Assembly (NCBI GenBank): GCA_026419785.1
Contig: JAODTK010000554.1
Coordinates: 1-64,000, forward strand
DNA length: 64,000 nt
Reading direction: 5' to 3'
DNA from: Sclerodactyla briareus
Taxonomy: Eukaryota; Echinodermata; Holothuroidea; Dendrochirotida; Sclerodactylidae
Position 1 is the stretch's first letter, and every line of letters begins with the position of its first letter. The notes under the pieces were generated by a model, which saw nothing but the letters and a program-made list of their open reading frames with translations, had not been told where the DNA came from and did not search any database. Below, piece by piece: positions 9,791-57,655 of the stretch. Position numbers and translations under genes: made by a program.

Positions 9791-9791
9791 A

Positions 9792-29330: not shown

Positions 29331-29635
29331 CCCATGCGCTCCCTCCGTTCAGCATCTCAAAACCTCCTAGAAGTCCACTCCATTCCAAAGACGCATTCTA
29401 ATGGGGACGATCTTTTGCCTCACAGCGGTCAGGGATGAATAGTCTCCCGCCCAGATTCGCGCTGCCTCTCGGTGATCTATTCAATGCTAAGCTCCAAACA
29501 TATCTTTCATAGTTCTAGTAGGGGCAATGTTTTTTATTGTTATTTTTGGCGTTTTCTGCTGTACCTCCTATTGTTTTCTGTTTTCTGTAAGTGTAATAGA
29601 GCACCTCGGTGATTTTTCGCTCTATAAAATGTAAT

Positions 29636-29653
29636 CTATTATTATTATTATTG
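29636..29653 (+). repeat. LINE 3' tail (ATT)n
   Basis: The element ends GCTCTATAAAATGTAATCT followed by five ATT units, the short tandem tail expected of L2/CR1-type elements. Confidence 0.8.
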
Positions 29654-30359: not shown

Positions 30360-30457
30360 TGATTGTCGATATGTAAAGCGCTTTGAGCAAGTCTTCGACA
30401 TGGAAAAGCGCTATTAAGAACGAATTTATGTATTATCATTATTATTATTATATGTGG
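30360..30457 (+). mobile_element. 3' end of a second L2-type LINE or SINE
   Basis: TATGTAAAGCGCTTTGAGCAAG and AAAAGCGCTATTAAGAACG precede an (ATT)n-like tail. This is the characteristic L2-like 3' end. It lies 0.7 kb after the tail of the larger LINE, in the same orientation. The upstream part (30,180-30,360) holds GAGACC/GGTCTCG inverted words but no coding motif, so this is a truncated or non-autonomous copy. Confidence 0.6.
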
Positions 30458-30881
30458 GCATGGGCAATGACAATGAAATAAATTAGTTGTAATTACGTGT
30501 TACACAACCCAACTTCATTTAATCAAACATCGCAATGATTTATATGTATGGGCCCAATTGGCAATCACCATCGCTGACACCGATGAAAACAAATTTTTCA
30601 ACTGAATTAAACCTAATGAAACCATACAGACGACACTCGGTTACGGTGTCGTAATTACAAACGAGTGAATAAAAAATACTCTTCGACTCTGGTGTGAAAC
30701 TGCTCCGGCGGCTGGGGCTGCGTGTAACTACATATCATCACAACTAAATGAGGCGTTTTACTGATCTGAATGAATCGCTGTGTTCAAGGAAGCGCAGTGC
30801 TGATGTAAGGAGTGTATTATGTTTGGTAAGTGCTTGATGTGATCAGAATGCAATGCATTCATACTCGCAATTTTTCTCCAG

Positions 30882-31097
30882 TTTGGAGTGGCCGAACATC
30901 GTAAAACTCGTACAACGTGTAGGTATCACTTCGGACCCCACTCCCTCTCCAAGTGGGGCGGCGGTGAGAAAGTCCGACGGGGATAGGCCCGGTATTTCAC
31001 ACGACGAGCTTCTGTTACAGAGCGACATATGCTACTTTCGGCACTATCGTAAATTTGGGTCTTCTAATGCCACTGTCTTATTCCAATTTATGGAATG
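30882..31097 (+). CDS. Candidate internal exon of an unidentified gene
   Basis: A 216-bp open segment is bounded by an acceptor-like site (ATTTTTCTCCAG at 30,870-30,881) and a donor-like site (GTGAGC at 31,098). It is open in one frame for 71 full codons, beginning LEWPNIVKLVQRVGITSD, with a Pro/Ser stretch and then ICYFRHYRKFGSSNATVLFQF. One base precedes the first full codon and two follow the last, so the exon is a whole number of codons. The composition looks coding and has none of the homopolymers common nearby. No family is recognised. The alternatives are a chance frame or a spliced non-coding RNA. Confidence 0.35.
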
Positions 31098-32779
31098 GTG
31101 AGCAAACACAATGCTGCGAAATGTATATGACTGTTACATTTCGCATTGTGAGAATATGATTGTATTGCTTTGCCGTACAAGGTTCAAAGGTCATCTGAGA
31201 TTAATAGAGGTCAAAGTCAACAATCTTGTAAAACGAGAGTCAGAATACGTCGTCGATCGTTACAAGGAAGGGTGAGCTGCAGCTTTGGGGGAGGGGGTGG
31301 GGGGGGTCATGAAAACCCAATGTGTTTTGGTGCAGGACTGGGGGTAATTGGAGAAAATGTAGGAAATCGTAAAAGTTTATTTTGGCAAATATCAGTGTGT
31401 TAACATGAGTTCGACATTGCCCAGATGGACGAAGCCTTGGTGGGTTCTCTCAATGAGTTAATGATCCCTATCATGTTGGGGTTAGGTCAGAGGTCAAAAG
31501 ATGTCTGCCTAATCTGATTAGTCCAGAAATTGACCGATTCGATTCACGATGAACTTCGGAATGATCTTTCTTAGGGGGAATTACATGGACCCTATCGGGG
31601 TAAGTTTGGTAAAGAACAAAACCAGGAATCAGAAGAAATGCGAATCTGGCGAATTTTAGAACGTTAACACGATGACCTTACATCACCTGGATGGATAGGG
31701 GGCCGGACTTGGTTGGGCGGTTCCCCATAATGGACTATGGAGTCAGCAGCAGGCTAGATCGGACAAAATGAAGATAGTGAAGAATTACTAAGCCTTTGGC
31801 TTCGGTTAGTCTGCCCTTATATACGACATTCATTATTCGTTTCATTAGGGGAATTTGTGCTATCCTGTGGCAGCGCGAGAATCCGATTCTAATATTTTGA
31901 ACGTCTCTGACCACCAGTTACGGGCTTCCTCTCTTTAACCGGCCATCCTTATCAGACTCGTTATCGCGAGGTCCCCAACAAATTAGGAGAAAAGAAAATT
32001 CAAGCAGGCAAACCTGCCCGTTCATAATTGATCCACTAACCGATAATCAGGCCTGATTGATGGCCAAATTCTGGCTTATCGATCTGAACAACGGAACCGT
32101 CGTCAAGTTGTTGTTATGTGTTTATTTTCGAAAGCAAAAAACAAGAACGGCGGATATTCGTTCCGGGTACTCGTTGTACGGCTCGGAAACTAAGATAAAC
32201 AGTTATTGCTTTCAAGATGAGTTTTAACGGCGTTCCTCGAGCAGGTACCGTATTTAGGCCTCAGCGGTATATCTTCACCTTTAGATTTCATCGACATTTA
32301 TAACCAACGGGTTCGGCTAAACATTCCATTATTTGCATATCACAGCCAAAGGGTCTCGTGATGTAACGCATGACGTTATTCGTAGTTGTTGCAGGTATTG
32401 GTTTGTTTTTTTTGGGGGGGGGGGGGGGTTGTTTTTGTGGTAACCATAAAACGGTTTAAAATGTCTGAAGTAGTCTAGCTGAACACCGAAGCCGGGAAGC
32501 ACTGATGAATGTTCAACATTTTCGTTACGGAGCGATGAACACGATCTAAAACGATAGCCCTTTGTCGAGAACTTGAGTCAGCAAGACAATAGTTCACTAG
32601 GGCCGTGTTAATCAGATAACATCGACCAAAATTGGCCCGTGAGGAAAGTTAAAGATGGTTTCGTCTGCTACGCGTCCAGCAACAAGCGACGGCGACGAAT
32701 TTTGCATAACGTCACGACGAAATATGTAAGGGGGCTGTAATTGTAATTTGAACGATACTGCTACCTTAATTTTATTATA
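31098..32779. other. Possible intron or intergenic sequence
   Basis: No gene is recognised. AAGGTCA/AGGTCAAAGTCAA words cluster at about 31,180-31,215, and G-runs lie at about 31,287-31,306 and 32,416-32,428. If the flanking exon candidates belong to one plus-strand gene, this would be intronic. Confidence 0.3.
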
Positions 32780-36326: not shown

Positions 36327-37203
36327 GCACCGTGTATACAGAATGGAAATGAGGACAAAAATTATTACCACAATGATATACTGTAAATAATCAAAATTGG
36401 GTCAGTGTTGTGAGACTTGAAAAAGAATCTGCACTTCTGGAGTATGAATTGGCCTATCATATAACAGTTGCATTACTTTTTGCAAAGTGCCTGAATGGGC
36501 CATCATGGTCGGTTCTTTAACCATGGTTGAGTGTTGATGCGAGCCGTCTCTGGAATTTTTTTTTTTTGTTTGTAATCCTACATAAACACTAGCCCCAACA
36601 AATACAAACCTTCTGAAGCATCTGCACCATAGCCAAAACATTGCCTCAGAATAGCACATAGATAGCTAGCCGATCTGCCTGAGTGATATAACACACACTG
36701 AATGGTGGCATCCATGGCGGACGTTTTGAGCTCAATTTTCGAAAAGTGTTGTGTGGGTATAAACTTCGAGAAATTGGGTCAATGATTCTAACGATTGTTA
36801 AGAAACTAGAAAAGTTTAAAAAATGTATACGTTGTCCTCACCAGTAAGACACTCTTCTAGCACATTTTCGGGCATTCGATGAAAAAATTTTCAAAATATT
36901 AATTCGCCCGATGTGCCGGAAAGGTCTTCCCGAAGTTCGATCTGTAATGATTTATGAGGAGTACCTGCCACCCCGACCTGGCTCCGCCCACTGCATCACG
37001 GTATTTGGTGTCTTTCATAGAGCAAGTTATTAACAGCCAAGTTAGACCGAAGTGGCGCATTGCGAAATTTCTTCCTTTTTGCTCAGACAGTTCAGAGCCT
37101 TATGAAAGGTGGTACAGTAAGATACTGCTATCGGCACGTTGGATCTCCTAGAGAACCAGTCAATATTTGTTGAGACATGCAAAACTTTTATTTTAATTTG
37201 ATT

Positions 37204-37230
37204 TTATTTGATCCCACCCCCCCCCCCCCC
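37204..37230. repeat. C-run in the left arm
   Basis: A run of about 14 C follows TTGATCCCAC. In the mirrored position (about 57,440-57,450) the other arm has only GGGGAGGGGG, so the run length has diverged between the arms. Confidence 0.7.
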
Positions 37231-38399
37231 TCTGCCCTGTGTCTTTTCGATTTCCTTCATCATCTATCAGTGACTTGGACGCCTCCAGCTCCAATCATCT
37301 TACTTTGTATGGATCGCTAAAGTACTTGCCAATGTAATATTCAGGCAGACTTCCAGGACAGCCAGCTGCCGGCCTTTCGAAATAATATGTCTTGTACTCA
37401 CTAGATAACCAACCATAGTACCCTCGCAAACAAGTCTTGTATAAACCATCCCTGATGCCAGGCACTCGACCTGTTACTGTAGTGTAGACCAATTTGAGCC
37501 CGCATTAAATTCGGTCGGTTATGGCTGATCTACTTTGTCATCACTCATGGTTTGTGGTCTGTTCCAAGTCTTGGTTAGTTCGGAAAAAACACGTCAGTCG
37601 TTTAGTCCCCTTTATCGGGTTTATATTGGTCAGTGAAATACTAGGCCAAGGAGTGAAATCCGACCGGTTCGGTATAAAATACTGATGTGATGTTGAATAG
37701 ATATTGGTACCGTGCCTGCCGAATTCAGCATAACTTGCTGACTTACAACGGCAAGCTGGTGGACGTACTTGGTGTGCAAACGACTTCGTTCAGTTAGGTC
37801 TTTAGGAAAGCCATTAGCTACAATCGGAAGTAAGGAGTAAAACATGACATAATTAATTCAATCTAATGATTCTGGTGTTTTCAAGGTTTATCTATCGGCT
37901 GTGCAATCAGTTGTGACAAAGATTAGGGCGGCGTGGTTACAGCCGGTGGTGTGAATACTGACACTGTTGAAAATGAGTTTATAGTGGGGAATCTGATAGG
38001 TAGGTTAATAGAAGTCGTGGCATGTAACCAGAGTAATGAAGATACTACTTGTAAAATCGTCAGGATGGAATTAGTCGCCGGAAGCAGCCAGTATAACTTG
38101 AATAATTATTTTGGAGAGAAAAAGGTTTCGATAACGCTGTGTATCCAACTAGGAGATTGTTTCAACAGTAGTATTATTGGAATACCGCATCTACTTCGAC
38201 ACGTTCACTTTCACTGTGACACAATAAAAGGTACGTTGAAATTTGTTGCCATGAACAAATTACCTAGACGCCTGCGTCAATGTACACGCACAGAAAGGCG
38301 CTAACAAATAACACGACCATTCTTAAAAGGACTCTAAACGGTAAACAATTGTTCTGTAGGAATGTACTAGTACCGTAAATTACATGGCAAACGTCTGCT

Positions 38400-38575
38400 G
38401 CCAGCATTTGACTGTTGTAAATGTGACTGTAAACTAATGTAGAATTCACAGTAAGTTACAGTAATATCATTTTGCTGTAAAATTTACAGTAGTTCATTTC
38501 AAATTACAGTAAATTACTGGCGCAGAGTTGCAGTAATTTACGGCGAATTCTACAATCGACTTTTTAAGTGTACTA
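38400..38575. repeat. ACAGTAAATTAC palindromic cluster
   Basis: Repeated CAGTAAGTTACAGTAA, CTGTAAAATTTACAGTAG and TTACAGTAAATTACTGG words form overlapping self-complementary stretches. The mirrored cluster is at 56,240-56,410, where one end reads TACACTGTAAAAAC. This looks like an old foldback element carried inside the large inverted repeat. Confidence 0.5.
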
Positions 38576-38952
38576 ATATAATTAGCGTGTGGGTTAGTTA
38601 TTACAATCAAACATCAGCGTTAGATGAATTACTTCTGGGAATTGATGATCAGATCAACCGCAAACCAATCACAAACCAAAGCTCCTCACACCACCCTAAT
38701 GAATAACAATTATTGCAATGAACATTTAATTTTACCCGCCCTTGTTCCACACTGAATAGATAATGGCCGAAACCGATTAGCCCAATATGAAAATCGGCAA
38801 TTCTACTTCCGTCCCTTGGAATGTGTATTGTGTATGTTATCAGCCAAATCGCACTTTTCATTTGTAGTAGAACTTAATCGTTTTTTCTACCTGTAGAATA
38901 CCGTCTCTAGTTAGAAGTTAGTGACAGTTCAATCTGCTGTTCGAATACAAAA

Positions 38953-40970
38953 TAAGAGACATACTGGATACGGATTCTTGCTAAATTCCACAAATTCCCA
39001 CGCTACTACTGCAATGTGTCATTTTTCTCGAGGCGTGAGGTGACCTTCTTAGCTGGTATTCGTTTTTAGTCTGGGGCTTAATGAAAAAAAATATTTTAAT
39101 TAGAGTATTAGGCGCGCAACGATGAAGAACCCTGCTTTTATGTAATCGAGGAACTTAATAGGCTTGTGTATCGGCGATACGTTTCCTAGTTAAAGTTATG
39201 GCTACACAATTCTTCAGTTCCGAAATAAGTAAGCTATGAAAATCCTAAAAGATACATTACCATCCAGCAGAAGGTACCTATTGTCTCGGACATTTTAACT
39301 GAAAATTCGCCTCGCCAAGCAGTATGAGGATTTGACCCGTTTTTAAAGTGTCCACGAATTTCAAAATTACACTCATTTTAGGGATTTTTGGTGCAAATTT
39401 GAGGTAAAGTTTGTAATGAATGTGCGAACGGCAGTTCAATAAAATACAAGAAATACCAAGGTCAAATTACCATAACAAAAAAAATATTTTTTTATACTTA
39501 ATGCACTGGCTGAAGTGCACTATGCTTATGGCGATTCCTGAAGTGGGTGTGTACGAAGTAGTTGCTATGCGTATGCAGACCAAATGTAATCAAAGGGGCA
39601 CAATGATTGCGGGCTCGATAGTCTAAGATTGGTGTAGTTGTTTGATAAGCAGTTTGAAAAAAATTATTTCAACTGTTGACACGTTTCTGATTTGTCTTTC
39701 TTTGTAATTTTCCATGTCAGTCCGTCGCGCATTTGGAATGCCTGAAAGCATCACAAAGTAGCGCGCGCGCCGCCAGTTGAGAAAGAAGAATGGCTAGACC
39801 ATTTCGCCTCTGATTTGAACTAGATCGCTTAACGTTACTTGACTATGTAAAATGGAGGATTTCCATATGATGGCACTGAACTGGTCAGGGAGTATCATTA
39901 ACGAACATCAAAATTTCGAGTTGTATTTATGAATGGGGATAGAAACAAGGGTACCTCTGTCTTTCACCGCATTTAAGACCTCTGAATGGTTTTAACCCTC
40001 TACGATTACGTCATTTTCATCCTCAAATGCAACACAAGACCTCGGCATCCCCGTATTTATCCCTTTAATAGAACCTTCCTACCACCATGACTGTTACTAT
40101 AATAACCGTTTGCTATGGGCGACACTAAATATACGGGAACTGACAAACTGAATACTTATCAAATTTGGCACCGATGAGATAACAATGCTCAAATGCTTAA
40201 CACTACTCCATCCTTCAGTTCCATTTCTTTTAAAAATGTGTAATGGCACCGTGTGACGCCGGCTGCAACCCCCTTCCACTAATGGGTGACCAGTGACTAT
40301 AATACTTGGTTGGGTGGTTTTAGCCGTCATATTGCCGGATATTCCCAGTTGTTTTCATGCTGATTTCATTATTCTCCATAGGAGGGACGGACTCCGTCAA
40401 ATACTAATATCTCAAAAAAATGTCTGATCTTTCTGTGATTAGTTGGCGATATCAGTGGTGAGTGACAGATTATTGAAAATTTGGCACCGAGCAGATAACA
40501 AGGTTCAATTAAATATATAGGCTACATACTCCGTCCTCTAGTTTAATTTCTTTTGAAAATGTGTAACGGCACCGTTTGACGCTGGCTTGTAACCTCTTCA
40601 CTAATGGGTGACCAGTTGCTCTACATACTTTGGTGTGGTAGCGTCATATTGCCGAGATATTCCCAGTTGTTTTCATGCTGATTTCATTATTCTCCATAGG
40701 AGGGACGGACTCCGTCAAATACTAATATCTCAAAAAAGTATGTCTGATTATCCTCTGATCTAGCTTGGCGATATCAGTGGTGAGTGACAGAATATGCGTT
40801 GATGTTTTCATCTCCTATACTCATTAGAGACGTGACTACGAGTAACTTCAGTGAAAAATTCTCGTAACTATGGTGAGTAAACAGGTGAAGGAGCTGAGGA
40901 TATATGTCCTCATACCTGGAATGGGTAATTCGAGGATTCTCCGTATGCAGTAAGGACGTTTTTTAAACAC
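38953..40970. mobile_element. ~2 kb sequence present only in the left arm
   Basis: At 55,835-55,862 the right arm joins sequences that lie 2 kb apart in the left arm. Either this stretch was inserted into the left arm or it was lost from the right. It contains a tandem duplication but no recognised gene. No terminal repeats or target duplication are obvious, so its nature is unknown. Confidence 0.55.
40160..40795 (+). repeat. Two tandem copies of a 318-bp unit
   Basis: CCAGTTGTTTTCATGCTG starts at 40,345 and again at 40,663, giving a period of 318. Each unit also holds TTTGGCACCGA, TAATGGGTGACCAG, TCTCCATAGGAGGGACGG and CAAATACTAATATCTC. The units lie in the left-arm-only segment. Confidence 0.8.
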
Positions 40971-41349
40971 ATTTTACTTCCATGATCGCTGTAGAATATA
41001 TGACACGTCGAAGACTTAACATAGAACGGTTCCGCGACGACCACATTCGGGCCTACAGTGACCGTGAATGAAAAGAAACACTTCCCGATAAGTCATTTGA
41101 GAATTACAGAAATGAGGAAATGTAGTTGGCACTGTACTTCCCTGAACTACAAATAAAAGTTGGGTTCGTAGAAATGTAGCGGGAAATCGTTCAACCCACC
41201 ATCTAAAAGCAGCCACTAAGGAACAAGACGGCCCCAGAAAGCGGGGGGGGGGGGGAATCTCCCCCGGTTATTTACCAGTATAGTAAATTAGTAACCGATA
41301 ATTCCCGTTAAGTGCAATATTGTTACTTATGAAGATTATACTAATGAAT

Positions 41350-41945
41350 AAGAGTATTTTTAACCGTGGTCATTGTTCTTTCGGCTTCCCTTACAAGTTA
41401 CTGCCTTTTATGGGTCTTTCACTCAAATTTATCGCTCAAAACTTTTCCATCAAGCAAGATTAACTTTTTCAACTTACGGCAAGTCCCTTGCAGATTTGTT
41501 GCCTCCAAACTACGTAGGCCATAGTCAGATAGTCAGACTTGTGACGCGTCTCTAAGAAAACGACCGAACCTCGCCGATGTCGTGGCACTCAACAAATTAG
41601 GCGAATGTAAGCAATCTACGAGAGCCCGAGCTTTTATGATCAGGACCAATTCGTGGTTAACAGACGAATCGTTCTTTAAGTACATTTATGTGTTTATATT
41701 TTTGGAGTGACAGAACCGGGAATTATTCTGTAATGTTTGGAAATAGAGGATGTAGTTACCGCTGCTCAAGGTAGTGAGTATCAAATTTGATGGCGTTAGA
41801 ATTGTTTACAAAGAGAGTTCCTTCCAGTCGGTGGCATCGGGGCACGTAAACGATTCCTTTTAATATTGTTTTGAGTCAAGTGTGTTCCAGGCAATTGGCA
41901 CGATGCAGGCTTAGGTATAAACATGGCATTATTCATTTATATTTA
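41350..41945 (+). repeat. R1 dispersed repeat, copy 8 (left arm)
   Basis: The mirrored partner is copy 12 at 54,735-55,477. This copy lacks about 130 bp of the 5' part that the partner retains. Preserved words include AACTTTTCCATCAAGCAAG, GCACTCAACAAATTAGGCG, TGTAATGTTTGGAAATAGAG and TTACCGCTGCTCAAGG. The R1-linked downstream block follows to about 42,730. Confidence 0.75.
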
Positions 41946-44049
41946 TATGGTTTGCGTTGTTAATGCACGTTGTTTTTTTTTTTACGTGTCGTTATTTATT
42001 GTCTCTGCTGCAGAGAGGATGGCTACTGGTGGATACATGTAACTGACGTAAGGGGCTAATGTTTTAATCCACCCCTATAATTGATCGGGTCATCACCGGT
42101 CATTGAAAACCAGTAGGTGCTGCAAAGGCTCGAGAGTTTCATGGATGTGAAGAGTAAGTACAGGGTCTGCTGCAGGACATTACAGGGAGCCATCTGAAAA
42201 TGACCTATTTTAGAAAAGCCATGGAATCCAATTGATATCCCAGGTACCTAAAACAATAGAGTTCGGGGAGTGTAGCAAGTGACATAGAGGAAACCGCTTT
42301 TATTGGGTCACAGTGAACAATCAAAATAGCCATTCCAAGCCGCGGGTTTGAAAGTTTGGCGGGTTAATGTAGACATAACAAAATATATTAAAGAATAACT
42401 GTTCACATTTTTTTTTATATCACCCATTGCAACCATACCTACTTCTTACACTATAGGCCAACAAGATGTTTATTCATGTTCAAAACGTTGTCTCAACGCA
42501 ATATTTCTGAACAGTAATTGAGACGTTCAACGGTAAGTTGCTAAAATACTTGAATAGGATATTTTCCTATTGAATAATAATTATGGTAAATAATAAATAA
42601 TTTGTCAAGCTCACATCAGCATTCCGTTCCTTTCAATTCCGTGTTGTCATCCCAGCTACGCCCATGTTTGAGCCTATAATGGAGCCTCATAATAGAGTTA
42701 TGCAGGTTCCGAGGTGGACGGTATATAAACACGAGGGTTGTTAATTGATATGACTGAATATTGTGTTGATCGATATGTCCATCGATATCTTAATCGATAT
42801 GACAATTTGTCATTAAGCAGCTATCGTTTCGGTTGTACTTTGAGTTACCCATCTACTACCATATACTGCTCATCTGTTCCGGTCGCTCGAGGGCTGTGGT
42901 TACAGCCAGTGCGAGCCTGATGCTTGACCCCAGTTTGAAGTTCGTGTTAAGATTGTAGCTTGGGCTCTCTATATAGGCATATCAATTTCGGCAACCGCCT
43001 ATTCAATTGCAGGCAGTAAGGAAGTAAAAATTTCTCTCCAAATTACCCACACACTTAACTTATATGGCTGGGTAACAAGTCCAGTGGCTCCAGCTGCCCG
43101 TGATTATTTCGATGCTAGATTTCTGGAATATTGTCACGGTTGGAGGGGCCAATAGATACCAAAGTGTACACAACCGTTACAATTTTCACAGCTCAATATA
43201 GAGTGAAGAAAAAGTATGTTTCCTCTATTCAGTGTCGTAGCATGAAGAGGGCGACATCTTGGATGGAATGGAAATCCCAAATTCTCAAGGTCCTACTCCA
43301 CCCTATCCCCACCAGAACAAACCCTATACGCTTCTGATGTTATTTAAGTACCGTTTACCCGGATCTATGTTAGGAATATTCTTCTATCTGTCTATTATCT
43401 TCGAACACATTATCGCTATCATATTCACATCAGCGTCTCGCTCTTTTTAATAGTGCGATACATTGCGCATATACGATTTTATTAGAGTTAATATAGAGTT
43501 ACCTACAGCAGGTACGCAAGAAGTAGCACTTTGGGCGCGAAAGTAGTTAATTATTATGACCATACTTGTTTGTAATCAAACCGCCGAGAGTTGCCATTCG
43601 TCTCAATATCTTCCTACGTCTGTTGCAAAGTTGTTTTCATTCGCGTCAATTGGGTTAATTCGAAATTTATGACATGTGTTTGCCAATGCGCTTTCCTGTT
43701 ATAACTCCCGTTGTGGTTACTATGGGAGTGCGCCATAAGCATTTTCATAGTTTATTATTGTGAACATACTGGATCTTGGAGAAGAGGGTATGCTCGGGTT
43801 CACGTAGTAGAAAAAAAAACTCCAAAAGGTGGAGGTCGATCGTCGGTGCAATCCTTTTATATTTCAAAGTGAAATAAAACAAACAATAAAAGCAACGATG
43901 TCTGGCTGCCATATTTTGTTGTTCGCATCTTGTCAAAATAATGGAATTGCCAAGTGAACACAACAAATCAGTCAATTTCATCATTTCGGTTCTTGATTCC
44001 TTTGGCGGAGGTAAGGGGTATCAATGCAATCATGCAATGTGTATGTGCT

Positions 44050-44065
44050 GTGTGTGTGTGTGTGT

Positions 44066-44098
<33 letters not shown>
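44050..44098. repeat. (TG)n microsatellite
   Basis: About 24 TG units with one interruption. The mirrored location in the right arm (52,652-52,682) has a much shorter CA-rich stretch, so the two have drifted since the arms separated. Confidence 0.9.
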
Positions 44099-44101
<3 letters not shown>

Positions 44102-44199
44102 ACGATTCTTCTAAGAACAATATCTCTAAGCAACGCAAGCATTCATTAAATTCAAATTAGACCTATTAGTTAGTTCTAAGTAGGAAGACGCATAGTGTT

Positions 44200-44720
44200 G
44201 GGACTTGAGGTACCTAAGGCAGTCGCGAGAAAGAGCTTGTAATGTCGATAACTGTGCAAGGAAAGGATGCAGAGAGCTCATATTTAGCATGGAGAGCTCC
44301 TATATGGAGAGTAGATGTCACTCTTGTTTCATAGAGTCGGGTCTAAGGTCACAAAGTCAGAGAGGTCAAAGTCTGAAAAGCTTGTGAGCACAATAACTGT
44401 GCATCGAAATGAAGTAGAGAATTTTACTTGGGCCATGAGGGGTTGGCATTCAGAGTAGATGATGCCTACTGGTCTAGAGTCAGGTCCAAGATCACTTGAG
44501 GTCAACAGGGGTCAAAGTCCAAAACATTTTCAGCATAGAGAACTGTGCAACAATGATGTAGAACCATACTTGGCATCAAGGTTGCTATGTAGAGTATATG
44601 TGCCCATTGTTTTGGGTGTGAACCAAGGACACCGATGGCCACAAGGTCGAAGTCTCAAAACGCTTTGTCAGCACAATGAACTGTGTACGAAATGAGTAGA
44701 AGTTCATACCTGGCGTGAGT
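44200..44720 (+). repeat. AGGTCA-rich tandem repeat with HNF4-like words (left arm)
   Basis: Three or four diverged units of about 120-140 bp carry AGGTCA or GGTCAAAGTC strings and CAGCACAATAACTGTGCA-like words. One, GGGGTCAAAGTCCA near 44,509, equals the DR1-type sequence known to bind HNF4-class nuclear receptors. Because the string is part of a repeat, regulatory use is inference only. The mirrored copy is at 52,020-52,560. Confidence 0.5.
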
Positions 44721-44875
44721 GATTGCAATTTGATTATACATCTCTGTCATCACTAATGGATAAGGGCCTTTAAAACCTCTGTATTGTAGGCACTTATATA
44801 ATAAACCTCAAGGAAACTCAAACTTTGAGGCACTACGAATTATAATCGTGCTTGTAACTCGGCTCAGGATGTCTA

Positions 44876-45640
44876 GCCTCATTAAACGGGTCACAGAGAC
44901 AAGTTTTCAATTTCAGGGCCTCTCTCAGGATTAAAGGAAGGTTTTTTTATTGGGAACACGGGGAAGTATTTATCCATATCGGATTCCTTAACTCTAGATC
45001 AATTCCGTTGCCTTCTCATGCCACTGATACTTCTTGGCTTCTCCTCGCAACCTTTGTATGGGTAATCTTTTCTCAAATTAGTCGCCAAAAACCTTCCATC
45101 AAGCAGGATTCGCTTTCTGAACTTTCGGCACGCCACCTGCAAGTGCTGCTGCTTCAAACTCCGTATTGCTATTGTCGGACTCGTAAAGCGTATTTAACAG
45201 ATCGACGAACGTAGTCCGTCGCCAATGCCGTGGCACTCAACAATAGGCAGAATGAAGCAATCACAAGCGCCCATTACCATCCGATCCGTTTATTCGTTCC
45301 CCCCAATCGAGCTTTCATGATCAGGGCCGATACTCGTTGTGTTGTAACAGACCATTTTCGTCAAGTACTCTCATATGTTTACATTTGGAGAACAGAACAG
45401 GGGTTTCTCCTTGTATGTTTGGAAATAGAGGATGCAGTTGGCGCTGCTCGGTGTAGTAGAGTATTCAATTTGATGGCTTCAAAACTTTTCAAGGAGAGTT
45501 CCTTCCAGCCAGTGGCCTTTTGGGCTTATGAACATCCTTTTAATATTGTTGCTCTAGTCCACAATGTTTCGAGAAATTCCGCCACCATTCGCTTGGGATA
45601 AACTGTCATTATTCGTTTACTTGAATCATATGGTTTGCGC
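44876..45640 (+). repeat. R1 dispersed repeat, copy 9 (left arm)
   Basis: This copy starts GCCTCATTAAACGGGTCACAG and continues through CTTCCATCAAGCAGGATTCGC, TTTCGGCACGCCACCTGC and GATGCAGTTGGCGCTGCTCGG. It ends GGGATAAACTGTCATTATTCG. A 123-codon frame (45,230-45,601) crosses it but is not kept in mirrored copy 11, so it is not treated as a gene. Confidence 0.8.
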
Positions 45641-45913
45641 TGTTAGCTTACCGGTTGATTGTCGTTTCTCATTGTTTTCCTGATGAGAGCGGCTGTTCTG
45701 CTTGACAAAGCAAGGTTTTTATGGTTGTAAAGATACCGGGTCTGCTGCCCGACATGTCAGAGAGCTATGAAAAGTTTTGTAGAAAAGGTAGTATATTGCA
45801 CTATTTTCAAATATCCAGACAATAGATTTGATGGAGAGAGCGTGACTGTTGACATGGAGAAACTGCCATTGATGATTCACAGGAAACCCTCGAAATTCTT
45901 ACAACCTGTCCGG

Positions 45914-45990
45914 ATAATAATAAATAATAAATAAATGAATAAATAAATAAATGAATTAATAAATAAATAAATAAATAAATAATAAATAGA
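45914..45990. repeat. (AAAT)n microsatellite (left arm)
   Basis: AAAT units with ATGAAT interruptions, mirrored by (ATTT)n at 50,717-50,820 in the right arm. Confidence 0.95.
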
Positions 45991-47314
45991 TCATAATGAT
46001 AAATATTAAACGGAAAGAAGATCCAATGAACTATTCTCCCATTTCAGTTAATATACTGCTGAAGTCCTACAGTGCCTTCATCTGTTCAATGGCCGTGCTG
46101 TGATGTAACCTATTCTCAACCTTAAGATATCATTTTCGTATGGTTTTCATGTCTTTAGCATGTTCCACATGACTTTTGAGGTTCCTAATACACCCTTAAA
46201 GGTTTTTTTTCCCAGTTTTTTTCTTTTCTATAGTGGGAAATGAGAATATATTGGTAAAACGTACCGTACATCCTGGTATTTCAGGCGGCCAGTCCTGTTC
46301 GAACATGAAAAACGGCCTACCTCCTTATCAATGTCGCAGCGGCATGGGAAGAGATTCTTGTGCTATAAATTCTTCAATCTCCAAAAGTTTTTAACATCCA
46401 TCCTACTCATCACCCAAACAAACTCAGTCCCCTGTGCTATCGGTTCTGTTGAGTATTCGACAACACCTAGTAACTATAGTGGTTTACAATAGCTCGCTAT
46501 TATCTTCTTCAGCGCAGCACCGACTCTCTCGTCTTCACATCCTTTGAATACGGCGAAATGCAGCTAGCCTTATTAGATCTCCATTTAACGTTACCTCTGG
46601 CAGCTGTACGCGAGAGCTAGCACTCGTAACGTAGTTTAAACATACCGTTCGTGATCGAAACCATGGACGCTTGCCCTATACGTCTCAATTACCTCTGCGT
46701 GTTGCAAATTTGTTTTCATTCGCGTCACAGTTAATGATAATTTATGGCATTTGTTAGGCATTGCGCTTTTTGGGATGCGGGGCCGTCGTAGGCACGCACT
46801 ATAGAGTGTATTGGCCTATTTTCCTCGTATTCCTCTTTCCAATATAAAGGAGGAGAAAACTCCGCAACGTCCCCCTCGACGTCACTTCCTGCTATCCAGT
46901 TTTATATAAAACATTTCTCCATTCTTAGCAAAGCTAAAAAGTAACAAACACCATGAATTAATTAATTTCATTCTTTCATTTCCTTTACATCTTGACTTTG
47001 GAGTTTGAGAAAGAGCCCACTTTCACTTCAGGCATTGTCTGATATGCCAATATATGAATATGTGAATATCTGAGGTCGAAGCATGCATGTAGTCTTCGCT
47101 ATCTACGTTAGCTCGCCGCCGTAATGAATTATATAGATACATTAACGCATCTATTAATAGTGTCACTTTTGGCCTTAGTTCGATTCATTATACTGATTGC
47201 TACTAGATCTCCTGACAGAAGCCGATGAGGCTCATTAAGAAAGGAACCTTGGTCGTAATTGATCGTGGCTAAGCATCGGCGATTACTCGCCTTCTCTTTC
47301 CGAAGAGTCTGAGA

Positions 47315-47560
47315 TTATATCGAGGCAAAGGTGTAATCAATCCCTACCCTCGTCCGGGAACGCCCTTTTACGGTGGGCGGCCATTCGAAAGGACGAGTAG
47401 CAACTCCAGGTCCAGACCACTTCTCGAACTCTGTTACAGCTAAGTCCACTGCCTCAGACGGGAACTCATAAAAGTGAAGTCCAAGATTCTCGCTCATCGC
47501 ATGTTTCAATGCAGACTCGAACTCGGTATGTTTGCTGTAGTCGTCACAACAAACGCTCCA
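47315..47560 (-). CDS. Candidate terminal exon of an unidentified gene
   Basis: A minus-strand frame open for about 80 codons ends in a TAA stop at about 47,315. It includes DDYSKHTEFESALKHAM, ENLGLHFYEFPSEAVDLAV, TEFEKWSGPGVATRPFEW and GRSRTRVGIDYTFASI. The third codon positions are rich in G/C and the residue mix looks like a folded protein, unlike surrounding frames. An in-frame TGA lies just upstream, and an acceptor-like AG (GGTGAACAG) lies between it and the frame, so a spliced terminal exon is possible. No family is recognised; a retroelement or transposase fragment is the alternative. Confidence 0.3.
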   Translation of the reverse strand, partial: WSVCCDDYSKHTEFESALKHAMSENLGLHFYEFPSEAVDLAVTEFEKWSGPGVATRPFEWPPTVKGRSRTRVGIDYTFASI

Positions 47561-48005
47561 CCCCTCTGTTCACCCTAAGTTTGAGAGGAGGATTTACTGA
47601 AAAAATCCTCGAATTGCATGAACGATATTCCCTTTCAAAGAACATGTAGGCTATCGACAATAACGAAAACTTACGCTTATTTATGAACCGTTAACCAGTT
47701 CTGACTTATAATGAATTTAATAATAATTTGTCGAGTGCTGCGGTGATTAATTGGAGAAGTTTACGTGATCCCTCCATGTCAAACACTGCAAATTTGTGTT
47801 GTTCTTGCTAAAGTTACCCACTATGTCGAGGGATAGGCCTGATACTACTAAGGCACACCGTATTAATCGCCAATAAAGACAAATGGGGCCAAAGTCGTCG
47901 TGCTCTTGCATATACCTGTCGGCAATAATAGCCCGAACGAAAACCTGATCGAAACTACTGTACTTACGTATTCTCGCTTGTTTTTGCGCTGTTCTTCGTA
48001 GTATA

Positions 48006-48680
48006 ATCCTCAATAAACGCGTCAGCATGACAATTTTTCAACTTCACGAGCTTCCTACAAATTGGGAGTATTTTGGAATCCATTTCTCTCTCTTTCTCTC
48101 TCGGTCCATCATCCTTTGTTGTTTTGCCCCGCTCCACTCATAGCTTTCCATAGATTATTGTACTCTAATCATCGCCAACGCTCTTGGATTGGGGATTAGT
48201 GTCGCCACGATTTCAGGCTATAATCAGCCTCATAAGTTCCCTCAAAGAAACAGCTTGCTGAGCAAACCATTGCCGATATCGTTGCTTTCATCCGAATCAG
48301 GCGCGATTTACACAACAAGGCTGCGAATGTTTACGCCATCTACATATCGTCATTCGAAGGTTTTTATGATTCCCCTCATTCGTAGTTTCAAAGTACAATA
48401 GTCTTCGTTCAAGTCTTTTTGTGTGTTTATTTCCCGAAGTGACGTAGTCGACCGGGAAGTGGCGAATAGTCGTTTCTGCGATCCACTGTCTTGTGTATCG
48501 ATTGGAAATAAAGGTTTTAGTTGCCGCTGTTCGTCGGCGGCCACTGTGTGATGCTTTCAATGTGTTTTTCAGAATGCGCTGCCACTATAGTCAGCGGCAC
48601 ATCCAGTGCTGTAGCTCAGCAAAATTCAATGGTCATTAGCACCACCCAAGTTAGGATAACACTGATTGCATCTTATGTAT
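48006..48680 (+). repeat. R1 dispersed repeat, copy 10 (in the spacer)
   Basis: This copy starts CCTCAATAAACGCGTCAGC, passes through TTGCCGATATCGTTGC and CATATCGTCATTCGAAGG, and ends CCCAAGTTAGGATAACACTG. It is more diverged than copies 6, 9 and 11. It has no mirrored partner, which supports the spacer boundaries. Confidence 0.65.
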
Positions 48681-48944
48681 CTAGAGTGATTTTGCGCATT
48701 TGAATACCTTAACATTAACGTTATTTAATTGACGTGACCGCGGCTATAATAACGGAAAGGTAGGTACTCACAGGAACAAGTGTTAAGTCGAAACGTCCTT
48801 GGTGCTGCAGACGGCAAAATCTCCTCTGGCGATACAACTGCATTATGTACCCACCCAACTTATGTGTACATCACCACTACCTCATTGCGGGCCTGTAGCA
48901 GTGAACATGGAAACAAACTTGGAACTCCTGTGATCCCGCTCTAG

Positions 48945-49190
48945 CCTCATTCATTCCACCGTGGATATAGTTCCACAACCAGGCCTCAAGTTCTCAGCCA
49001 GGCTCCTACAAATGAGAAGTGATGACAACTTTCCACTTGGAACGTGCCTGTTAATCCCCCATTGCCTGAATTCATTCCACCATGGATGAAGTTCCACATG
49101 AAGCCACTGTCTCAGCCGAGGTCACCATGCTATTGAGAAGTTGGCTGAAGATCTTCCCACAACGTTCGTGTGAAGCTTGGGTAGCAATGT
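48945..49190 (+). repeat. Two diverged ~125-bp tandem units
   Basis: TCATTCCACCGTGGATATAG and TCATTCCACCATGGATGAAG start the units at about 48,951 and 49,073. Both continue into GTTCCACA, CTCAGCC and ATGAGAAG / TTGAGAAG words. Confidence 0.65.
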
Positions 49191-50716
49191 AACGAAACCA
49201 GATCTCCATGGGAATGACTGTGAAAGAATAACGGGGGTATCAAAGAATTAATTAACATCCCATCACATTGTCGCCCCAAAAATGCACTCGTCCCTGACCA
49301 GTGGCGATGCTGCACCACCTGCCAAGTTTTGACCTGATCGTATGTACGTTTAGAAGTCTTCGATAATTGACGAATATCGGACCAACGAACGAACTAACGA
49401 ACCGAGAGACCTGATGACTTGTAGACTGTATACCGCATCTAAAAAGGTATGTTTTGGGGGACAGCTGCAGATCGCTAGCTGCGGGGGCTCAAGCTTACTA
49501 TAGGATCCCGACACACCTCTGCTCCAGCCTACCTGCTTTTAATTTCCAGACGACGGGACAGCTTGGTAGAAATGGTGTGAAATTGAACTAATGTGAAAAT
49601 GATGCTCTAGTACATGGAACCTTCATTGACTTGCTCCCTATATGGCCTACACATTTCTGAATGTTTCAAGGGTAAACTTGTGAAACGTAGGGAAAGTGGG
49701 CTCTTTTTCAAACTAAAAAATAACTCGAAAACTCGAAACTCCAAAGTCAAATTGTAGAGGAAACAACGAAATAATGAAATTAACTAATTCATTGTGTTGT
49801 TAATTTTTGCCTTGTAAGAAGGAAGAACAGCAAGAAATGTTCAAATGGTGCAGGAAATGGTGTCACTGCAGTTTTCTCCTCCATATTGAAAAAAGGGAAT
49901 ACAAGGAAGATAGGCCGATGAACTCTATATGTGCATGCCTACGACGCACTCCCAAAAAGCGCAATGCCTAACAACTGAACAAATGCCATAAATTACAATT
50001 TAACTGAATTGACGCGAATGAAAACAACTTTGCAACAACGTAGAGAGGTAATTGAGACGCATAGCAAGCGTCCAGTGGTTTGATCACGAACGAGTATGTT
50101 ACGAGTGCTAGCTCTCGCGTACCTGCCAGAGGTAACTTTAAATGAGCATCTAACAAGGCTAGCTGCAACGCAGTATTCAAAGATGGTGAAATGACGATGA
50201 GAGTGGTGCTGCGCCCGAAGAAGATAATAGCGAGATATTGTAACCTATAGTTACTAGGTGTTGTCGAACATACTCAACGGAACAGTAGCACAGGGACTGA
50301 GTTTGTCTGGGTGATGAGTAGGATGGAGTAAAACCTTTTGGAGATTTTGAAGAATTTTCATAGCACCACGAATCTCTTCTCCATGCCCGCTGCGACATTG
50401 AATACATGGAGGTAGGCCGTTTTTCATGTTCGGAACAGGGCTGGCCGCCTGAATTCCAGGATATTACCGGTTTTTACCAAATACATTTCCCACCTATAGG
50501 AGGAAAAACTGTGTGTGGAGGAAACCTGAGTGTATAACACACCATCAAACGTCATGTAGAACATGTTAAAAACATGAAAACTATACGAAAATGATTTCTT
50601 AGGGTTGAGAATAGGGTTACATTCACAGTACGGCCAGTGAACAAGATTGACTGCACTGTAGGACTTCAGCAGTATATTAACTGAAATGGGAGAATAAATT
50701 CATCGTATCTTCTTTC

Positions 50717-50820
50717 CATTTATTTATTTATTTATTTATTTATTATTTATTATTTATTTATTTATTTATTTATTATTTATTTATTTATTTATTTATTATT
50801 TATTTATTTATTTATTATTT
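50717..50820. repeat. (ATTT)n microsatellite (right arm)
   Basis: About 26 ATTT units with shorter interruptions, mirrored by the 77-bp (AAAT)n tract at 45,914. Confidence 0.95.
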
Positions 50821-51134
50821 CCAATTTATCCGGACAATGTTGATAAGCATTTTCGAGTGTTTACTGTGAATCAATCAATGCATTTTTCTCCATGTCAATT
50901 ATCACGCTCTCTTCATCAAATCTATTGTCTCGAATATTTGGAAAATCAGTGCAATATCACTACTTTTTCTACGAATAACTTTTCATGGCTCCCCTGACAT
51001 GTCGGGCAGCAGACCCGGTATCTACACAACCATAAAACCTTTGCTTGTTTCAACCAGTAACCAGCCGCTCTCCAGCAGAAACAATGGTTAACGACAATCA
51101 ACCTGTAATCTGACAGCGCAAACCATATGATGCA

Positions 51135-51875
51135 ATTGAACGAATAATGACATGTTTATCCCAAGTTGAATGGCGGCGGAATTGTCTCGAACATTGTTGA
51201 CTAGAGATGAAAAGAGAACAATATTAAAAGGAATCGTTTATGTGGCCCAAAATGCCACCGGCTGGAAGGAACTCTCTTTGTAAACAGTTTTGAAGCCATC
51301 AAATTTAATACTCAACTACACCGAGCAGCGCCAACTGCATCCTCTATTTCCAAACATTACAGAGAAACACCTGTTCTGTTACTCCAAAATGTAAACATAT
51401 GAGGAGTACTTGACGAAAAATATGTCTGTTAAACAACGAATTCGCCCTGATCATAAAAGCTAGGATTGACGAATAAGCAGATCGGTGGTAATTGGACGCT
51501 TGTGAATTGCTTACATTCTGCCTAATTTGTGAGTGCCACGGAATCGGCAACGGCTCGTTCGTCGATCTGTTAAATACGCGTACGAGTCGATAAGAGCCTA
51601 CGGAGTTTGAAGCAGCACGTAATCTGCAGGGCGTGCCGGAAGTTCAGGAGCAAATCCTGCTTAATGAAAAGGTTTGCGCGGACATTTGAGTAAACCTACA
51701 CAGAAAGAGGTTGTGAGGAGAGCAGGAAAAGTATCAGTGGCATGAGAAAGGCACGGAATGATCTAGGTAAGAATCCATGGATGAAATACTCCCGTGTTCC
51801 CAATAAAAAACCTGCCGTGAATTCTGAGAGGCACTGAAATTAAACTTGGTTCTGTGACACGTTTAATGAGGCTAC
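51135..51875 (-). repeat. R1 dispersed repeat, copy 11 (right arm)
   Basis: This minus-strand copy is the mirrored partner of copy 9. On the plus strand it starts ATAATGACATGTTTATCCCAAG and ends TGTGACACGTTTAATGAGGC. It has stop codons in the frame that is open in copy 9. Confidence 0.8.
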
Positions 51876-52019
51876 GACTCCTGAGCTCGGAGTTAGACAA
51901 GCACGATTATATTCGTAAGGTGTAAGATTTCCTTGATGTTTATTATATAAGTGCCTACAATACATCGTTTTTAAAGCCCCTTCTGTCATAGTGATGGACC
52001 AGGAAATGTATAATCACAT

Positions 52020-52560
52020 TGCAACCACTCGCGCCAGTGAACACTCTACTCATTTCGTACACCAGTATTGTGCTGAAAATGGTTTTGGGAATTTGACTTT
52101 GTGTTGACCATCGGTGACCGTGGAACACACCGAAAACAATAGGGTAACATAACCTCTACACTAGCAAAAACTCATGCTAAGTATGAGGTCCTAACATCAT
52201 TGGTTGCACAGTTCTCATGCTTGCATGGCTTTTGGACTTTGACCCCTGTTGACCTCAAGTGACCTTGGACCTGACTCCAGACCAGTAGGCATCAACTACT
52301 CTGAATGCCAACCCCTCATGCCAATAAAAACTCTCTACTTCATTTCGATGCACAGTTATTGTGCTCACAAGCTTTTCAGACTTTGACCTCTCTTGACTTT
52401 GTTGACCTTAGACCTGACTCTAGAACAATAGTGCACATCTACTCTCCACATAGGAACTCTCCATGACAATATGAGCTCTCTGCATCCTTCCCTTGCACAG
52501 TTATCGACATTACAAGCTTCTTTCGACTGATCTTAGGTAACCCCCGCGTCCAAAACAATA
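52020..52560 (-). repeat. AGGTCA-rich tandem repeat (right arm)
   Basis: This is the mirrored counterpart of 44,200-44,720, with TGGACTTTGACCCC near 52,236 matching the HNF4-like word of the left arm, plus TTGACCTCAAGTGACCTTGG. Confidence 0.5.
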
Positions 52561-54734
52561 TGCGTCTCCCTACTTATAACTAACCAATAGGTCTAATTTG
52601 AATTTGATGAATGCTTGCGTTATTAAGATATTGTTCTTAGAAGAAGCATCACATACACATCCACACACACACACATACACATTGCATGATTGCATGATAC
52701 CCTTACCTTCGCCAAAGGAATCAAGAACCGAAATAATGAAATTGACTGATTGTTGTGTTCACTTGGCAAATTCATTATTTTTACGAAGATGCGAATAACA
52801 AAATATGGCAGAACATGACATCGTTGTTTCTATTGTTTGTTTTATTTCAATTTGAAATATAAAAGGATTGCACCGACGATCGACCTCCACCTTTTGGAGT
52901 TCTATTTTACTGCGTTGAACCTGAGCATACCCTCCTCTCCAAATCCAGTATGTTCACAATAATAAACTATGAAAATGCTTATGGCGCACCACCATACGTG
53001 ACCTAACGGAAAAGCGCATTGCCAAACACATGTCATAAATTTCGAATCAACCCAATTGACGCGAATGAAAACAACTTTGCAACACGTAGAAAGATAATTG
53101 AGACGAATGGCAACTCTCAGCGGTTTGATTACAAACAAGTATGGTCATAATAATTAACTACTCAGTTTTCGCGCCGATAAGTGCTACCGCTTGCGTAATG
53201 CTGTTAGGTAACTCTAATATTAACATCTAATAAGATCGTATATTCGCAATGTATCGCACTATTAAAAGGAGCGAGACGCTTATGTGAATATGATAGCGAT
53301 AATGTGTTCGAAGATAATAGAAGGATATTCTAACTTTAGATGCCGGCAAACGTACTTAACAGAACAGAAGCGTATAGGGTTTGTTCTGGTAGGGATAGGG
53401 TGGAGTCGGACTAGAGAATTTGGGATTTCCATCCAAAATGCCGCCCTCTACATGCTACGACACTGAATAGAGGAAACATGCTTTTTCTTCACCCTATATT
53501 GAGCTGTGAACATTTACGTCGGGCACTTGTTCTCTCGGAACGGACCAACCGTGTCCATATTCAAGAAATCTAGCGGGCGAAATAATTACGGGCTGCTGGA
53601 TCTACCTTTGTACTTAGCCAGAAAATAATTTGAAGTGTGTTTGTAATTTGGAGGGAATTTTACTCATTACTGCATGCAATTGAAAAAGCGGTTGACGAAT
53701 GTACTGTATATGCTTTTACCGAGAGCCTAAGCTACAATCTTACACGAACTGCAAACTGTGGTCGAGCGTGCATTGGCTGTAAGCATAGCCCATTTAAGCG
53801 ACCGACACAGTTTAGCAGTATATATGGTAGTAGACAGGTAATCGTCAACGTACACCAAACGATAGCTTCTTGATGACGAAAATGTCATATTGAATAAGAT
53901 ATATCGATGGACATTATTGATTGACACAATATTCAGCCATATCAATTAACAACCCTCGTGCCTATATACCGTTCCACTGCGGAACCTGCATAAACTCTAT
54001 TAAAGGCTACATTTAAAGGCTCAAACATGGGCGTAGCTGGATGAAACACGGAATTGAAAGGAACGGAATGATGATGTGAGCTTGACATATTATATTTATT
54101 TACCATAATTATTATCAATAGGAAAATACTGAAGTATTTTTAATTAGCAACTTACCGTTGAACGTCTCAATTACTGTTCAGAAATATCGCGTTGAAACAA
54201 CGTGTTGAACATGAGTAAAAACATGTTGCTAAGTATTATAAGTACTGTTGCAATGGGGGATATAAAGAAAACGTGAACAGTTATTCTCTAATTATTTTGT
54301 TTGTCAGAGTAGTATTGACCGCAAGTTCACCGCGAGCTTTGAGAGGCTGATTTGATTGTTCATTGTTACCCAATAAAAGCAGTTTCCTCTGTGTCACTTA
54401 TACTACACTCCACCGAATCTATTGTTTTAGGTACTGCGATATCAATCGGATTCCATGACTTTTCAGAAATAGTTCATTTTCAGATGGCCTCTCTGAAATG
54501 TCCTGCAGCAAACCCTGTACTTACTCTAACATCCATGAAACTCATGAGCCTTTGCAGCACCTCTTTTTTAAATGAACGGTGATGACCCAAGCAATTCTAG
54601 GGTTTGATTACTAGAACATCAGCCCCTTTTGTCAGTTACCATGTATCCACCCGTAACCATCCTCTCTGCAGCAGAGACAATATATAACGACAAGCAACGT
54701 GTAATTCAACAACGCAAAACATATAAATCGATTA

Positions 54735-55477
54735 AACGAATAATGACTGTTTATCTATAAGCTGCATGGTGGCAAATTGCCTGGAAACACAGGTGACTCT
54801 AACAACATATTAAAAGGAATCGTTTACGTGCCCCAGAATGGCCACCGACTGGAAGGGACTCTCTTTGTAAACAATTCTAACGCTATCAAATTTGATACTC
54901 ACTACCTTGAGCAGCGGGTAACTACATCCTCTATTTCCAAACATTACAGAATAATTCCCGGTTCTGTTACTCCAAAAATATAAACACATAAAATGTAATT
55001 AAAGAAGATTCGTATGTAAACACGAATGACCTGATCAGAAAGCTCAGCGGCGGCTTGTGGATTGCTTACATTTCGCCTAATTTGTTGGGTGCCACGACAT
55101 CGGCGATGGTCCGTTCGTTATTCTGTTTAGAAGGACGCGTCACACAAGTCTGGCTATCTGACTATAGCCTACGTAGTTTGGAGCAGCAGGATAATCTGCA
55201 AGTGACGTGCCGTAAGTTGAAAAAGTTAATCTTGCTTGGTGGAAAAGTTTTGGGCGACAAATTTGAGTAAAAAATACCCATAAAAGGTTGTAAATTGTAA
55301 GGAAAGCCGAAAGAACAATGGCGGAAGAAAGGCAAAACGATTTGGGTCTAGAGTAGGCTAAAGAATCCTACGGATAAATACTCCCGTATTCTTAATAAAA
55401 AAACAGTCTGTCTTCAATTTGGAGAGAAGCCCTGAAATTGAAAACCATCGTCAACACGTGGCACGTTGATTGAGGCG
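54735..55477 (-). repeat. R1 dispersed repeat, copy 12 (right arm)
   Basis: This is the mirrored partner of copy 8, and fuller than it at the 5' end (GTGGCACGTTGATTGAGGCG at its plus-strand right edge). The left edge reads AATGACTGTTTATCTATAAG. Confidence 0.75.
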
Positions 55478-57655
55478 TGACTCTGAGATAGTTAGTACCA
55501 TGAGTGTTCTTCGGTGTCGTTTGGATGTTCAATACATATGTGCATGCAAACGCGGTTAAAATCCTTCTGATTCATTAGATTACCTTTATAAGTGACCATA
55601 TTGCACTTAACGGGAATTATCGGTACTATACGGATTTCTACGAACCGCAAAAAGGATTTGCAGATCTCAGGGAGTACAGTGCAATTACATTTCTGCATTC
55701 TGTAATTCTCAAACTGACTCATTGGGAATTGGCTTCTTTTTCATTCACGGCACTGTATACCCGACATGTGGTCGACGCAGCAATGTCACTGCCATGTTAA
55801 CCGTACGAGTGTGAATTTCTCACACGATCATGGAAGTAAAATATCTATTTATAGTATTCAACAGTAGATTGTAACCTGTCACTAATTTCCTGACAGAGGA
55901 CGTTATTCTAGAAGTAAGAAAGCGATTAATATCTACAACGAAAGGGCGATTTTATTAAATAAATACCAAATACAAACAATCACAGGCTGAAATGGAAAGT
56001 AGATTGCCGATTTTCAATTAGGCTAATCGGTTATAGGCTACAGCGAGTAATATAGTCAGTGTGGAACAAGGTCGCAAATTAATGTTAATTGGCAATAATT
56101 GTATTAATTTTATGGTGGTTGTGTTGTAAGAGCTTTGTAGATTTGTAGCAGGCTCGATAGAATCATTCGATCCCAAGAGTAATTCTTCTAACTCGATGTA
56201 TTATTGATATAACTAACCCAACACGTTGATTATATAATTACACTGTAAAAACAAAAATCAATTGTAGAAAATAAACTACTGTGAAAATTTACAGTGAAAC
56301 GATTTACCTTTAATGTAATGGAATATTTACAGTAGTTTACGCTAAAATTTGTGTACAATAAATTACTGGCCAGCCAATTACAAGTAATTTACTGTAAATT
56401 ATACAGAAATGGTTTGCAGGTAGGGCCATGTTAAGAATGGTCGTTTATATTTAGCCCTCTTCGGCATGTGCTTGTCCCAATTGACCCGCTGATATAGGAA
56501 TTTGTTCATAAGCAACAAATTTCAAGTACATTTTTTTTTTCCTTGTGGCCACGTGACAGTAACCGTTGTCTAATGTAGTGCAAGGATTTCAATAGATACT
56601 ACTGTTGAAATGAAACAATCTCCGTTGAATACATCGTTATCGAACCTGTTCCCAAATATTAATTATGGCAAAGGGTAATATGCTGCTTCCGGCGACTAAT
56701 TCCATTTTTTTTTTTTCCCATGACGATTTTACACTAGTAATCCTCTTAACTTTGGTTACATGCAACGAACTCCTATTAACCTACTGATACAAATTCCCCA
56801 CTATAAAATCAATTATCGACGTGTAATGTCATGTATTCACCACCAAAGTTTGTAACCACCTCGCCATAATCTTTGTCACAACTGATTGCACAACCGATAA
56901 ATAACAATTCACCAACACCAGAATCTTAGATGGAATGAATAATGTCATGTGTATCCAACTTCGATGGTAGCTAATGGCTTCCCTAAAGACCTAAATTGAA
57001 CGAAAATCGGTTGCACACCAAGTACGCCAACCAGCTTACGGGGTGGGAGTCCAGAAGTCATCGAGTGAATGCTTCATCGGCAGGAAGCGGTAACCAAATA
57101 TTCTATTCCCAAACATCCCATCAGTATTTTCTACCGAACAGTCGGATCTCACTTCTTGGCCTATTATTCCTGCAAAAAATATAACGATATAAAGGGGACT
57201 AAACGGACTGACGTTTTTTAAACCAAGAATTGGTGAATACCGACCATAAAACCATGATGATGTTGCTGCGAGAGTTCTATGGTTGATATCTAAAAGTGAA
57301 GTAACAAAGGAACTATTATGGCAGCTGACTTCTGGAAGCGCACGGGAATACATGGTAAGACGTTGGCGATCCATACAAAGTAAAAATGATTGGAGCCGGC
57401 GAAGGTTAAACTATAATGCTAACGGAAATCAGGAAACTGGGGAGGGGGTAGAATCAATATGATAAAAAAAAATGTTTGGCATGTCGCAAAAAATATTGAA
57501 TGGCAGTTGCGATAGGAAGTATGTTACTCTGCCACCTTCCATAAAGGCTCTGACAGTTCGGAGCAAGAAGGAAGAGATTTCGCAATACGACTACTTCGGT
57601 CTACTGGCCGTTTATAACCGGCTCGTTATGAAAGACACAATACCGTGAGCTAACG

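Follow-up and report, generated by a model that had tools for sequence, protein, structure and literature searches.

A stretch of 64,000 nucleotides at the start of contig JAODTK010000554.1 of the holothuroid Sclerodactyla briareus (assembly GCA_026419785.1), hereafter called the window, contains a large mirrored structure for which a first-pass annotation had proposed three origins: an old inverted segmental duplication, a giant foldback element or a haplotype or assembly artefact. In order to decide between them we analyzed the extent and composition of the structure, its copy number, the way in which its arms differ and its coding potential. The window opens a contig of 258 kb, and genome searches covered the 319-Mb assembly with its 3171 contigs; very common words were skipped in these searches, and the counts given below are lower bounds.

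Comparison of the window with itself pairs a left arm at 36996-47027 with a right arm at 49689-57648 (Table 1). Self-blast gives collinear minus-strand matches, in agreement with the inverted repeat previously placed at 36990-57655. The outer arms (37288-38954 with 57396-55846) match in three pieces with coordinate sums of 94,684-94,812, and the inner arms (40971-47009 with 55842-49732) in pieces with sums of about 96,690-96,920, which recovers the stable sums of about 94,790 outside and 96,750 inside noted earlier. The step between the outer and inner sums is a one-armed segment at 38949-40970. The suggested length of about 8 kb per arm holds for the right arm (8.0 kb), but not for the left arm, which measures 10.0 kb as it includes these additional 2.0 kb. 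With changed gap costs the inner arms become a single alignment (41371-47006 with 55320-49736) of 5867 columns with 82.6% identity and a score of 5205 bits, far above the chance level of 41 bits, the best minus-strand score in ten first-order Markov simulations of the window. The outer arms (36996-37336 with 57648-57349 and 37539-38948 with 57262-55854) are 71% identical. As the arm homology extends to 47027/49689 (26 bp, 92%), we place the spacer at approximately 47028-49688 (2.66 kb). The mirrored features reported before are likewise present, namely AATA/ATTT microsatellites at 45919-45988 and 50718-50820, R1 units in both arms, and an AGGTCA block at 44229-44594 that matches 52151-52530 at 89%. 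The bare AGGTCA motif is not special to these blocks: the contig has 94 such sites on one strand and 95 on the other, and 2-kb bins elsewhere are denser. The blocks are part of a degenerated repeat whose offset is about 144 bp and which is present in both arms and, at the search sensitivity used, has no copy elsewhere on the contig.

Table 1. Features of the inverted repeat and relatives of its unit, in window coordinates.
Feature	Position	Strand	Remarks
Outer part, left arm	36996-38948	+	71% to 57648-55854 (minus); embeds a palindromic dispersed element at about 38331-38574
One-armed segment	38949-40970	.	dispersed-repeat matches within 39192-40073; tandem duplication 40161-40795
Left arm unit L41	40971-44150	+	closest to R55; alignments and tree; unit boundary approximate
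Left arm unit L45	44151-47027	+	closest to R51; starts with AGGTCA-bearing degenerate repeat 44229-44726; boundary approximate
Spacer	47028-49688	.	single in window; dispersed repeats 47216-47434 and 48773-49445
Right arm unit R51	49689-52599	-	mirror of L45; alignments and tree
Right arm unit R55	52600-55842	-	mirror of L41; alignments and tree
Outer part, right arm	55854-57648	-	71% to 38948-36996
U22, diverged unit relative outside the inverted repeat	21710-23311	+	66-71% to the four arm units in long matches
V17, weaker unit relative	17660-18071	+	blastn word 7, E up to 0.01
Further unit traces	3751-4185, 15927-15998, 23793-23847	+	blastn word 7, E up to 0.01

A local unit occurs twice in each arm, head to tail, as L41 and L45 in the left arm and as R51 and R55 in the right arm. 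Within an arm the units are offset by 3.6 kb in the core and by 3.0-3.1 kb in a second short block, and they match one another only in patches, at about 69-83%. When six unit cores are placed in a maximum-likelihood tree, L41 groups with R55 (99/100) and L45 with R51 (100/99), the third inner branch being unresolved. This pairing across the arms suggests that the tandem duplication came first and the inverted duplication later. Weaker relatives of the unit outside the repeat, at 3.7-24 kb, all lie on the plus strand, and a 25-bp match at 58.7 kb is the only unit trace listed beyond the repeat.

Both the one-armed segment and the spacer carry material that recurs elsewhere in the genome. The search with the one-armed segment, in which 40 of 162 candidates were scored, returned at least 50 matches, one to the segment and 49 to other contigs. 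The latter all fall within 39192-40073, so that dispersed repeats make up about 0.9 kb of the 2.0 kb; the rest of the segment, including a 316-bp tandem duplication (40161-40795, 84%), has no other match among those listed from the same scored candidates. The simplest reading is that these repeats entered after the duplication, the alternative being a loss from the right arm. For the spacer, where 40 of 840 candidates were scored, at least 52 matches were obtained, one to the spacer and 51 to other contigs, on the two dispersed repeats given in Table 1; the spacer has no long self-match within the window. The earlier description of the spacer as unique is therefore correct with respect to the arms and the window, but not with respect to other contigs, where both of these repeats are matched; they may predate the inverted duplication. 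It had further been argued that the one-armed segment and the unique spacer make a simple read-through palindrome less likely, an argument that stands for the former and only in part for the latter.

Foldback and other long inverted-repeat transposons consist of inverted arms with a loop, and this much the structure has in common with them. If it were a giant foldback or terminal-inverted-repeat transposon, copies of its arms might be found at other loci. However, all five matched places of the arm core 51046-51461 and all four of the arm stretch 43160-44030 lie inside the window. The outer-arm stretch 37580-38960 has a single nearly full-length partner, the other arm at 55854-57219, and at least 61 other matches that are all confined to query positions 752-995 (40 of 78 candidates scored). 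The arms are thus low-copy and not a dispersed repeat in the three stretches searched, and multiple genome copies were not seen for any of the three. The short matches belong to an element at about 38331-38574 in the outer left arm, which is dispersed, with many copies in the genome, and palindromic, as judged from the many places that matched on both strands. No target-site duplication is present at the outer ends, where the longest shared word is 4 bp (equalled in 300 of 300 shuffles), and neither a transposase nor another Pfam family scores above the cut-off. Occupying one locus, without target-site duplication or transposase, the structure differs from foldback transposons in each of these respects, and we regard such an origin as highly improbable.

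An artefact, in which one molecule was read twice or sequences were misjoined, would be expected to leave its mark in the differences between the arms. Under one alignment setting the inner arms differ by 415 substitutions, of which 201 are transitions and 214 transversions, and by 329 indel events. The resulting indel-to-substitution ratio of 0.79 is high and depends on the gap cost, as a MAFFT alignment gives 918 mismatches and 145 gap events. The abundance of 1-bp (231/329) and homopolymer-type (127/329) indel events is in line with an artefact; the differences are nevertheless not almost all homopolymer indels, the outcome that the first-pass annotation had named as speaking against a genuine structure, given the 415 substitutions. 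Across ten duplicate pairs of the contig, inner and outer arms included, the ratio ranges from 0.55 to 1.46, which indicates that indel-rich divergence is a trait of the contig and not of the inverted repeat. With indels this frequent, it is likely that the assembly contains some indel error, or else that the lineage gains indels fast. Noise spread evenly over the sequence is less likely: an HSP70 control has eight exon rows out of 14, the longest of 276 bp, that are free of stops. This argues against an even indel error rate of about 3% in each sequence, with the caveat that rows of this sort are biased towards intact stretches. Stops occur in the other six rows, and two of these overlap in different frames, as would be seen after a frameshift; these six side with an artefact. 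The HSP70 matches lie on two contigs only (13 of the 14 rows on one, the remaining row on the other), which seems few for a 319-Mb eukaryote, so that the assembly may be incomplete or in part withheld.

Isolated substitutions, for which the alignment is safe, allow a comparison with other duplicates of the contig under the same alignment setting as the 415/329 count. In the inner arms they comprise 60 transitions and 37 transversions, compared to 42:82 for eight other duplicate pairs pooled (Fisher p 4e-5), 9:43 for the tandem copies at 178-189 kb alone (p 1.5e-7) and 33:39 for the remaining six pairs (p 0.04), where the 178-189 kb contrast was picked after inspection of the table, the pooled contrast of all eight pairs was made afterwards, and a tandem copy at 24.5 kb was left out because its global alignments were unusable. 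The copies at 178-189 kb look error-dominated, which lends some weight to an artefact in this contig, whereas the inverted repeat does not. The outer arms, with 74 transitions and 122 transversions among all substitutions, have too few isolated ones for a judgement (5:3; with a flank of 4 bases, 7:11). They diverge more than the inner arms (196/1639 or 12.0% against 415/5316 or 7.8% substitutions, p 5e-7), which counts against one event followed by uniform drift, as this predicts no such gap. Unique substitutions of L45 and R51 number 85:46, 88:50 and 83:41 with three outgroups; those of L41 and R55 number 76:47 with U22, and 54:51 and 52:49 with R51 or L45. Identical runs within the inner arms are clustered, with 14 that reach 30 bases or more where 3.6 are expected. 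Gene conversion between the arms, uneven constraint or local assembly error could contribute to this uneven divergence. The all-substitution ratios (only 201:214 inner and 74:122 outer), the excess of unique substitutions in L45 (85 against 46 in R51) and the clustered identical runs speak against an old duplication. On the other hand, the substitutions of the inner arms with their transition-leaning isolated fraction, the 2-kb one-armed segment with its dispersed repeats, the spacer that occurs once, the two separate unit pairs in the tree and the older unit copies elsewhere in the window all speak against an artefact, which we consider very unlikely.

The contig harbors a number of other duplications. 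Tandem copies with a period of about 2.7 kb and 80-82% identity extend over contig positions 178321-189206; their isolated differences are transversion-heavy (9:43) and indel-rich, and they resemble copies of recent origin that sequencing error has blurred, or else an assembly artefact. A second inverted pair with 1.2-kb arms (79%) and a 1.2-kb gap is located near the contig end at 250314-253953, with isolated transitions and transversions of 4:11. A tandem segmental duplication of up to three copies, offset by about 7.5 and 15 kb, spans 146845-165000 and ends at a run of 2500 N bases. In the window, short tandem duplications with many indels are found at 12647-14237 and 24548-25142, with offsets of about 761 and 202 bp.

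To assess the coding potential of the locus, we searched all of 36990-57660 against Pfam in six frames with stops as X, and found no family above the cut-off, two weak rows (DUF436, E 0.19; TPR_VPS8_2, E 0.056) being disregarded; the three plus frames of 27000-32000 and the three minus frames of 8000-12500 gave none at E 0.01. No Rfam family was detected in the window at the gathering score, and none in 47000-49700 at E up to 1. A tRNA search with the bacterial code found none, and 41000-47010 matched no phage records. The units might still be genes with short, fast-evolving exons, in which case the repeat would be a head-to-head pair of tandem gene duplicates. This could account for a local family of related units in an ordered cluster and for the block 41684-41800, which is about 97% identical between the arms, and it could draw on the synonymous changes between the arms in the minus frame of 41759-41833 (both changes) and at 44434-44511 (two of three). 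The latter two are a weak lean, resting on two or three changes, among 21 open segments common to both arms that were analyzed by codon counts in the arm alignment; most of these lack a third-position excess and show no clear pattern. The conservation profiles of the two unit pairs show no correlation (r -0.009, a value reached by 400 of 757 circular shifts) and thus give no sign of a shared constraint in the unit core. Together with the Pfam result this makes the gene reading improbable, and the inverted duplication is probably non-coding and non-functional. It is also conceivable, if only barely, that the arms are transcribed through the spacer into a long hairpin RNA that would feed small-RNA silencing of the local repeat family. 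Perfect runs of 21 bases or more still occur 37 times between the inner arms and add up to 1159 bases; these, along with the lower divergence of the inner arms, would be allowed by hairpin use as well as by conversion between the arms.

Of the three proposed origins, the evidence thus favours the inverted segmental duplication, whereas the foldback element lacks copies and a target-site duplication and the artefact is at odds with the kind of differences found. That the structure is a real and old inverted duplication appears quite probable to us on the strength of its collinearity and score (5205 bits against at most 41), the order of duplications given by the unit tree and unit matches, isolated substitutions that lean towards transitions (60:37 against 42:82 in control pairs), the dispersed repeats found in both the spacer and the one-armed segment, the absence of copies outside the window for two arm stretches, the lack of a Pfam family in the repeat and of an Rfam match in the window, and the other local duplications of the contig, one of them inverted with a 1.2-kb gap. 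Local segmental duplications in eukaryote genomes are low in copy number, adjacent, without element-specific ends, and contain repeat material in one copy. All of this is seen here, with the difference that the duplicated tract is a tandem dimer of a local repeat in which no gene was found.

As to the route, a tract of about 8 kb, consisting of two tandem units and flank, has a reversed second copy, and the roughly 2.7 kb that separate the two are single. The tandem units would have arisen first, by unequal exchange or replication slippage, after which fold-back or template switching during one event of break repair or replication would have copied the tract in reverse, with the fold-back loop remaining as the spacer. 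Drift of the copies would have followed, together with the insertion of repeats into the left arm and perhaps also into the spacer. None of this would require a function; the repeat would at most be a passive structure able to seed further rearrangement. If the old inverted duplication is real, we lean towards such a fold-back or template-switch route on the basis of its anatomy. The single-copy spacer between inverted copies that fold-back entails is found at 47028-49688, and with 2.66 kb it fits the sequenced spacers of 766-70,466 bp (median 3,428) given for human nonrecurrent fold-back inverted duplications (PMC3907307); foldback priming at breaks is also named in another study (PMC10622511). 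The human cases likewise have two inverted copies and a kilobase-scale spacer present once, but are large duplications with many genes (PMC3907307), in contrast to the 8-kb arms of the present repeat, which is old and diverged, with no terminal deletion shown and with unreadable junction microhomology. When inspected by eye, the junctions at the spacer edges proved too diverged between the arms, and any microhomology is eroded. Alternatively, the dimer could have been duplicated in tandem and one copy inverted by a separate inversion, which would give the same picture and suits a contig in which tandem duplications are common and the unit itself is tandem; as this takes two events, and one copy would have to be broken at both its ends for the inversion, we consider it unlikely.

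Taken as an old inverted duplication, the repeat looks like an ordinary kind of genome rearrangement and not like a new element or a sequencing artefact. The large mirrored structure needs no new mechanism, as most of its anatomy can be explained by a tandem dimer, a single inverted duplication whose spacer is of the size seen with fold-back, and repeat material. Substitution spectra across the duplicate pairs of one contig, in turn, provide a usable if modest check by which old duplications can be told from error-dominated copies.
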